Source: Candidatus Nitrosymbiomonas proteolyticus (GTDB lineage: Bacteria > Armatimonadota > Fimbriimonadia > Fimbriimonadales > Fimbriimonadaceae). From it: DNA of 64,000 nt. The stretch's first letter is position 1. Every line of letters begins with the position of its first letter. Position numbers and translations under genes: made by a program. Under the pieces are notes generated by a model, which saw only the letters and a program-made list of their open reading frames with translations, ran no database searches and had not been told where the DNA came from. The stretch covers positions 744,001-808,000 of the forward strand of contig AP021858.1 of the NCBI GenBank assembly GCA_017347465.1. The letters are read 5' to 3'. Positions 5,196 to 36,935 of the stretch are shown one piece after another.

Positions 5196-6188
5196 TCAGC
5201 CGACGTGAATCGCCACCTCTCCCGAGGCGACGACGCGCCCGATCTTTGCGTGCCCCTCGATCGGGGTCTTGCTGAAGAGCGCGAGTCCGCCGCTTGTCTG
5301 GGGGTCGACGACGACGTGCTGGAGCCATTCGGGGACAGGGCCGCCCCAGCGAAGGAACGGCTCGACGAACTCGAGATTCCGGGATGCGCCTCCGGTCAGA
5401 CAGCCAAGTCCAACCAGGCGCTCGACTCCGGGCAGAACCGGGAGGGATTGAGAATCGACTTCAAGGACGACACCCGATTCTCTCGCCACATGCAGCAAAT
5501 GCCCCAGCAACCCAAATCCGGTGATGTCCGTGGCGCATCGAACCCCTGCCCGAACACCAGCCTCGCACGCGGCGGCGTTGAGTTGGCTCATCGACTCCGT
5601 GGCAAGGGCGATCTCCTCAGCAGATGCGAGGCCGTTTTTTAGGGCGGTCGATACGATTCCAGTTCCAAGCGGCTTGGCCAGATAGATGTCGTCGCCAGGT
5701 TCGGCCGAAGTGTTGACGAACATCTTGCAAGGATCGACGACTCCGGTAACGGCCAGGCCAAACTTGGGTTCCGAGTCCTCAACGCTATGCCCGCCCACAA
5801 GGACTGCGCCCGACTCGATAACCTTGTCGTGCGCCCCCAAGAGGACGTTCGCCCATACGTCGGCAGGAGCGGCTTGGGGATCGAAACAAGCGATATTGAG
5901 CGCGGTGATCGGCCTTCCGCCCATTGCATAAACGTCGCTCAAGGCGTTCGCGGCGGCGATCGCGCCAAAGGCGTAGGGGTCATCGACGACAGGCGTGAAG
6001 AAGTCGACCGTCTGAACCAGGGCTTGGCTTTCAGACAGCCGGAACACGCCCGCGTCGTCGCGCGTTGCGAACCCCACGAGGACGTCGGGGTGGGCGGATT
6101 TAGGGAGGAGTCGGAGCACGTCCGACAACTGGGCGGGGCCCAGTTTCGCCGCTCAACCCGCGCATCGAACCATTTGCGTCAGTCGCAC
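5196..6188 (-). CDS. selD: Selenide, water dikinase, selenocysteine-containing
   Basis: SelD makes selenophosphate from selenide and ATP for tRNA-Sec synthesis. Without readthrough the frame appears to begin at a TTG at 6128 and lacks the catalytic N-terminus. Extending upstream in frame gives MRLTQMVRCAG-U-AAKLGPAQL with UGA at 6153-6155. This matches the family pattern RLTxxxxxxG(C/U)xxK: the UGA falls on the catalytic Cys/Sec (residue 12) and Lys15 is the partner lysine. The GTG start at 6188, 10 nt after the amidase stop, gives 330 residues, close to the family's usual 340-350. The ATP-binding and DVYAMGG metal-binding regions follow. SelB is encoded at 35.1 kb. Confidence 0.9.
6127..6145 (-). 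promoter_or_regulatory. Candidate bacterial SECIS hairpin in selD
   Basis: Seven nucleotides after the UGA (6153-6155, minus strand) the mRNA can form a perfect 8-bp stem, AACUGGGC with GCCCAGUU, around a CCC loop. The loop is about 16-18 nt past the UGA, where bacterial SECIS loops are found. The loop lacks the G common in E. coli-type elements. Confidence 0.55.
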
Positions 6189-35068: not shown

Positions 35069-35075
35069 TGAAGCA

Positions 35076-36935
35076 ATGGCCCGCCTTATCGGTACAGCCG
35101 GACACGTCGACCACGGGAAAACGAGCCTCATCAAGGCGCTGACCGGGATCGACGCCGACCGTCTGCCTGAAGAAAAGGCACGGGGAATGACCATCGACCT
35201 CGGATTCGCCTACGTCGAGCTTCCGGGGATCGGCCGGGCTTCGATTGTAGATGTCCCCGGCCACGAGCGGTTCCTGACGAACATGATCGTCGGCGCGCTT
35301 GGGGTCGATGTCGCGCTGCTCTGCGTGAAGGCGGCCGACTCCGTCATGCCACAAACCCGGGAGCACCTCCAGATTCTTTTGCTGCTCCCGGTGGAGAGGC
35401 TGATCGTTGCGCTGACGTTTGCCGACCTCGCTGACGACGAAACGCTCCAGATTGCAAAGGATGAAGTTCAGGAGCTCCTCGACGCGACGCGGTTCGCCGG
35501 GGCGCCGGTGGTCCCGGTGTCCGCCCCCACGGGCGACGGAGTCGCCGAACTCAAGGACGCGCTGGCGCAAGCGCTTCGGGAGACCTCCGCCGCGGAGGAG
35601 GGTCCGTGGTACTTGCCGATCGACAGGGCTTTTGTGCTGAAAGGGCAAGGGATCGTCGTCACCGGGCCTTTGATGAGGGGGGCGGTCCGGGCGGGCGACG
35701 AGGTGTCCGTTCAACCGGGCGACGTTCGCGCAAGGGTGAGGTCCATCCAGCATCATGGCGAGCCAACTGAGATCGCCGAAGCGGGGCGGCGGACCGCGCT
35801 CGTTCTTTCTGGAATCAAGCCGGAAAGGGTGCGGCGCGGCATGATCGCCGGCGAACCCGGCACGGTCTTTGAAACGCTGCGGTTCGACGCTCGCGTGGAA
35901 TGGGTTGCCGCCTGCAAGCATGGGTCTCGGGTACGCGTTTCTCTTGGAGCCGAAGAGGTCATCGGCAGGGCGTTCCTCAATGCGCAGGACCGCGACCTGG
36001 TGCAATTGCGGCTGGAATCGCCCGTAGGCTGCGCGACGTTTCAGCCCCTCATCCTGCGCCACTACAGTCCTCCCCACGTCATCGCCGGAGGGCGAGTGAC
36101 GGTCCCCCTCGCTGCGCCCCGAAGGTTCCGCGATGCGCCCCAAGCTTCCGTCGATTCGTCCAACCGAGCGGTTTCGGTCCTTGCGCTCTTGAGCGCGGAT
36201 GCCCGAGGGAGGAGCGTGGCTGAAGTGGCTCAGCAGGCAGGGCTTTCCCATTCCGCCGCCGCCGAAGCCTTGCAGCGCCTCGCAAGCGAAGGCCAGGCGA
36301 TCAACCTTAGCGGGGCTTGGATCGCTTCCCATCAACTCACCGCAGCGGGCGAGGCAATCGTCCTTGCGCTCCAGAGAATGCACGCGGCCGCGCCCTCGCA
36401 GTCCTCTCATCCGCGAGACCGGGTCTTGAAGGCTGCGGGGCTCGATTGGAAGGGTGCCAGCCTGGACCGATCCCTGGCGCTTCTTTCGCAGGCCGGAAAG
36501 GTTGAAGTTCTCGGCGCAAACCTGCGGCTGCCTGGGTATCGGGTGCAAATGAACCCGCATCAGCGCCAATTGCTCGACCGGGTCGAGGGCGCCCTGTCGG
36601 CGAGCGTAGCGTCGCCCCCATCACCGAGCGAGATCGCCTTGGCCGAGCGTCTGCCGCTCCAGGCGGTCGAAGCCGCGATCAAGCTCGGCCTTGAGGCAGG
36701 GGAGATCGTCCGAATCGACAAGGACATGTATCTCACTCAAGAGGCCCTCCGCAAGATTCAGGACTCTATTGTGGCGGCCTTCGGGGATCGCTCCTTCGCC
36801 GCCGCCGAGTTCCGCGACCTTCTCGGAACGAGCCGCAAGTTCGCGATTCCTTGGCTCGAATACCTGGACCGCATTCGGTTTACGCTGCGAGTGGGAGATA
36901 AGCGGGTCGTCCGGGGCCGGAACTTAGAAGAGTGA
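35076..36935 (+). CDS. selB: Selenocysteine-specific elongation factor SelB
   Basis: A 619-residue GTPase that brings Sec-tRNA to a UGA followed by a SECIS hairpin. G1 is [10 protein letters not shown]3 is DVPGHE, and the EF-Tu-like domains 2 and 3 follow ([21 protein letters not shown]-type region near 185-205). Residues about 370-619 are four winged-helix domains that bind SECIS RNA. The G4 motif, normally T/N-K-x-D, reads TFAD, an unusual Lys-to-Phe change. The ATG at 35076 is chosen because the G domain begins there. It fits the UGA-containing selD at 5.2-6.2 kb. selA and tRNA-Sec are not in the window. Confidence 0.96.

Follow-up and report, generated by a model that had tools for sequence, protein, structure and literature searches.

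An in-frame UGA at the catalytic position of selD in Candidatus Nitrosymbiomonas proteolyticus, and sequence evidence for selenocysteine use in the Armatimonadota

The window analysed here is a stretch of 64,000 nucleotides, positions 744001-808000 of the single 2.81-Mb contig of a genome that is 99% complete, and it includes genes for the synthesis and use of selenocysteine (Sec). On the minus strand at 5196-6188 lies selD, for selenide water dikinase, which runs from a GTG start at 6188 to a TGA stop at 5196-5198 and encodes 330 amino acids, with Sec as residue 12, when the in-frame TGA at 6153-6155 (codon 12 of 330; GTG CGA CTG ACG ... GGT TGA GCG GCG AAA) is read as a Sec codon. The Sec-specific elongation factor gene selB is located on the plus strand at 35073-36935; its product scores 354.7 bits against TIGR00475 (cut-off 242.25) over positions 2-580 of 581, and the selB that a sequence-only reading had placed in the same window is therefore full length.

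Mechanical ORF calling starts selD at a TTG at 6128 and yields a 310-aa ORF from which the first 20 residues are missing, the truncation that the sequence-only reading had anticipated from standard gene calling. When the UGA is read through, the score in a profile search with NCBIfam selD (TIGR00476; curated cut-off 125 bits) rises from 326.3 to 356.9 bits and coverage extends from positions 31-303 to positions 1-303 of 311, a full-length match in which the proposed restoration of the SelD N-terminus is borne out from the first position of the profile. The reading frame is intact apart from this TGA. The GTG at 6188 occupies the start codon position common to 46 Sec-containing relatives (ATG in 39, GTG in 7), which supports the gene limits of 5196-6188 first put forward.

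The site itself was compared with that of E. coli SelD (PDB 3u0o). The two proteins are homologous over residues 1-314 and align without a gap from V1 of the Armatimonadota protein and I6 of E. coli through the N-terminal region, so that U12 falls on the catalytic Cys17 and K15, three residues on, falls on Lys20, just as had been proposed from the DNA alone. The Cys or Sec and the Lys required of the N-terminal loop are both present, and the loop that carries them is encoded upstream of the TTG at 6128. The proteins differ in that the catalytic residue is Cys in E. coli and Sec here, and in that Cys19 of E. coli is replaced by Ala or Ser in the Armatimonadota family.

The remainder of the Sec-decoding machinery is dispersed in the genome and does not form a single operon. 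A selA gene at genome positions 2365264-2366562 scores 382 bits to Pfam SelA and stands above the NCBIfam cut-off, and a tRNA-Sec (selC) at 814862-814951 scores 74.4 bits to Rfam RF01852, where the next tRNA reaches 50.7; ARAGORN likewise reports a tRNA-SeC with anticodon TCA (UCA) in the genome. The absence of selA and selC had been named as grounds for abandoning the selenoprotein interpretation, and both were found. Thus selA, selB, selC and selD occur together in one genome, the combination by which the Sec-decoding trait is recognized in bacteria.

Relatives were drawn from 85 genomes of the same taxonomic family, in which the site could be read in 50 SelD genes. The codon is TGA in 46 of these and Cys in four (TGT in G084 and G055, TGC in G036 and in the divergent G018). 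Nearly all SelD genes among the 85 genomes contain exactly one TGA, and selA and tRNA-Sec are present in essentially the same genomes as selD; G018, whose Cys-SelD is 41% identical, has neither. By our count, a single TGA is found in 121 of 148 matched stretches across the phylum. A search of genome contigs with the single SelD protein returned one near-identical record only, CP054189, an independent assembly whose 97%-identical selD copy has the same TGA. The alternative pattern set out beforehand, relatives with a sense codon and no SECIS, is not what was seen: relatives carry the UGA (46/50) together with a covarying hairpin of SECIS type. In G063, a 97% complete genome of the same genus, no match to SelD, selA or tRNA-Sec was obtained, and the Sec trait has apparently been lost by this member of the genus.

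The RNA that follows the UGA was examined in a gap-free alignment of 57 nt from the UGA, comprising 44 distinct sequences. It contains two recurrent hairpins: P2, formed by columns 11-18 and 22-29, and P3, formed by columns 30-36 and 40-46. In this genome P2 lies on the minus strand at 6127-6145 (AACUGGGC-CCC-GCCCAGUU), between the UGA and P3, and P3 follows on the same strand at 6110-6126 (GUCGGA-CGUGC-UCCGAC). Pairing in P3 reaches 94.2%, and three of its pairs (30/46, 31/45 and 33/43) show double changes, in 21 cells altogether; 31/45 occurs as G-C, U-A or A-U, for instance, and 33/43 switches from G-C to C-G. When codons were shuffled within column and amino acid, leaving every protein unchanged, z was 9.2 for P3, 3.8 for P2 and 3.6 for P1, a possible closing helix that is only 74% paired; when codons were drawn from general usage the values were 15.1, 8.6 and 7.5, and both sets are upper estimates given that the sequences are related. 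Along the gene, synonymous-corrected RNA structure peaks at the UGA. Pairing of P3 drops to 57% in the four Cys genes, as against 94% in the family alignment, and their synonymous-corrected fold signal is on average absent (mean z 0.33 in these four versus -2.16 outside them).

A published model of the bacterial SECIS (bSECIS) specifies a loop of 3-9 nt, an upper stem of 4-16 bp, at least one G in the first two loop positions, 16-37 nt from the UGA to the apical loop and a minimum free energy (MFE) of at most -7.5 kcal/mol (PMC13188914). The loop, stem and loop G of P3 all fall within this model, as does its distance of 32-33 nt from the UGA to the apical loop. In this genome P3 alone folds at -7.2 kcal/mol, slightly short of the limit of -7.5; the family consensus P3 reaches -11.5, P2 alone -11.4 and the whole 57-nt stretch -21.4. 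In other families of the phylum (20 genes sampled) most genes have a P3-like hairpin at the same place, often GCGCAGGUNCUGCGC, and P2 varies. Because P3 is widespread and P2 is variable and found mostly in the one family, P3, the second hairpin after the UGA, is likely the SECIS and the putative site of SelB recognition, with P2 an additional, lineage-restricted feature. The canonical bSECIS is a single stem-loop, and the family differs from it in the extra conserved P2 between the UGA and P3 and, in some relatives, in a third helix that could close P2 and P3 together. It is possible, although we would not favor it at present, that the family bSECIS is a two-hairpin element in which the RNA-conserved P2 holds the SelB-binding P3 at a fixed distance from the UGA; if true, the element would be structurally distinct from the single-stem bSECIS and open to remodelling. 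The selD of G048 (L049) has the UGA and lacks both P2 and P3, which appear to be replaced by one long hairpin.

Several other accounts of these data must be weighed. The conserved hairpins might reflect amino-acid and codon constraint only, with no SECIS, and conservation does extend to the protein motif LGPxQLxEVLR, while the z of 3.8 for P2 is modest under synonymous permutation and is inflated by sequence kinship. The z of 9.2 for P3 with its 21 double-change cells over three pairs, the loss of the signal in Cys forms and the structural peak of the gene at the UGA all run against such constraint, which we consider very unlikely to be the whole explanation. The UGA might instead be decoded without Sec, by a UGA-reading tRNA-Cys or tRNA-Trp or by non-specific read-through. 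Four relatives do have Cys in place of Sec, so that Cys would probably be functional at this site, but they encode it by TGT or TGC and have lost the hairpin; moreover, the Sec machinery is complete in this genome and co-occurs tightly with selD across the 85 genomes, and UGA keeps its role as a stop codon in this organism, since the selD frame is closed by a TGA. Non-Sec decoding is accordingly given very little credence.

A sequencing error at the TGA, or a pseudogene, with the real protein beginning at TTG 6128, would agree with the 310-aa ORF that standard calling returns from that position. The same TGA is present, however, in the 97%-identical independent assembly and in 44 further SelD genes of the family, a degree of retention that points to neither chance nor sequencing error; the frame is otherwise intact, and a protein begun at 6128 would be without its catalytic loop. 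The probability of this explanation is close to negligible. Given the frame, the site, the machinery, the conservation of the UGA, the covariation of the hairpin and its loss in Cys forms, selD is almost certainly a genuine selenoprotein gene, in which Sec would be inserted at codon 12 under the direction of SelB and P3.

From the established biology of bacterial Sec, SelB carrying Sec-tRNA-Sec would bind P3 downstream of the UGA during translation and deliver Sec at codon 12 in place of termination. The selenol of Sec12, acting with Lys15, would then make selenophosphate from selenide and ATP, and SelA would use this selenophosphate to make Sec-tRNA-Sec. SelD would thus need its own product, and would supply Sec both for itself and for one or more other proteins, including a deiodinase-like client.

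The candidate client is encoded by a second UGA-containing gene, of the thioredoxin fold, at genome positions 977162-977551 (locus L117 of G000:C1, 1401 bp), found in a search with AhpC-TSA. Read through (FGSYTUPPF...YIREAHPEDG, with the UGA in SYTUPPF), its product matches the Pfam iodothyronine deiodinase family (E 7.8e-28). Across the 85 genomes this family gave eight matches, each with one TGA. In the present gene the UGA is followed by a hairpin (GCGCCC-AGGC-GGGUGC) whose loop lies 16 nt away. Deiodinase-like selenoproteins are already known in bacteria (PMC13188914; PMC2398784). Because this gene exists, SelD is probably not the sole selenoprotein of the genome. Formate dehydrogenase (FdhA) was ruled out as a second selenoprotein, there being no UGA in any strong family match, and selenouridine synthase, which would represent a second use of selenophosphate, gave no match above cut-off in the 85 genomes. 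A covariance-model search of eight genomes for more SECIS elements placed only selD above noise, and when the window was scanned for further UGA-containing frames accompanied by bSECIS-like hairpins, 25 candidates emerged, of which none was gene-like as judged by frame lengths. A relative has a further selenoprotein candidate, a peroxiredoxin-like frame with an in-frame UGA in FGUVFC (L119; G053:C1:1297465-1297893).

The kind of gene described here was already known, since in a 2006 survey no other bacterial selenoprotein was as widespread as SelD and FdhA (PMC1794560). Sec-containing SelD has long been recognized in bacteria, and the present gene resembles the known examples in its catalytic UGA, its putative downstream bSECIS and the co-occurrence of selA, selB and selC (PMC1794560; PMC13188914; PMC4561486). 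What is mildly unusual is the CxxU motif, the double hairpin and the existence of Cys relatives that keep the machinery. The motif (Cys9 at 6162-6164 and Sec12 at 6153-6155, minus strand) is found in 43 of 46 family Sec-SelDs, whereas its reported share among single-domain Sec-SelDs of the marine GOS data is about 5.6% (PMC2398784), and none of the four family Cys-SelDs has Cys at -3. Two genes of other families have a Cys at +2 instead. As for the Cys relatives, G036, G055 and G084 (L056, L054 and L050) have selA and tRNA-Sec, and no UGA-containing FdhA match was found in them, whereas the 2006 survey recorded Sec-FdhA or Sec-SelD in all bacteria with selenoproteins (PMC1794560). Retention of the Sec machinery in genomes that have no Sec-SelD, and in which no Sec-FdhA was detected, is a mildly unusual pattern and, with two of the three genomes fragmented, a lead and not a result; it raises the question of which selenoproteins maintain the machinery where SelD has Cys.

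A search of the open-access literature found no paper treating the selenoproteins of Armatimonadota. In this largely uncultured phylum, standard gene calling truncates SelD, and the observations described here provide well-supported sequence evidence for the use of selenocysteine throughout a poorly studied group. The 46 Sec and four Cys sister genes of the family offer a natural comparison in which to follow the erosion of a SECIS after the switch from Sec to Cys.
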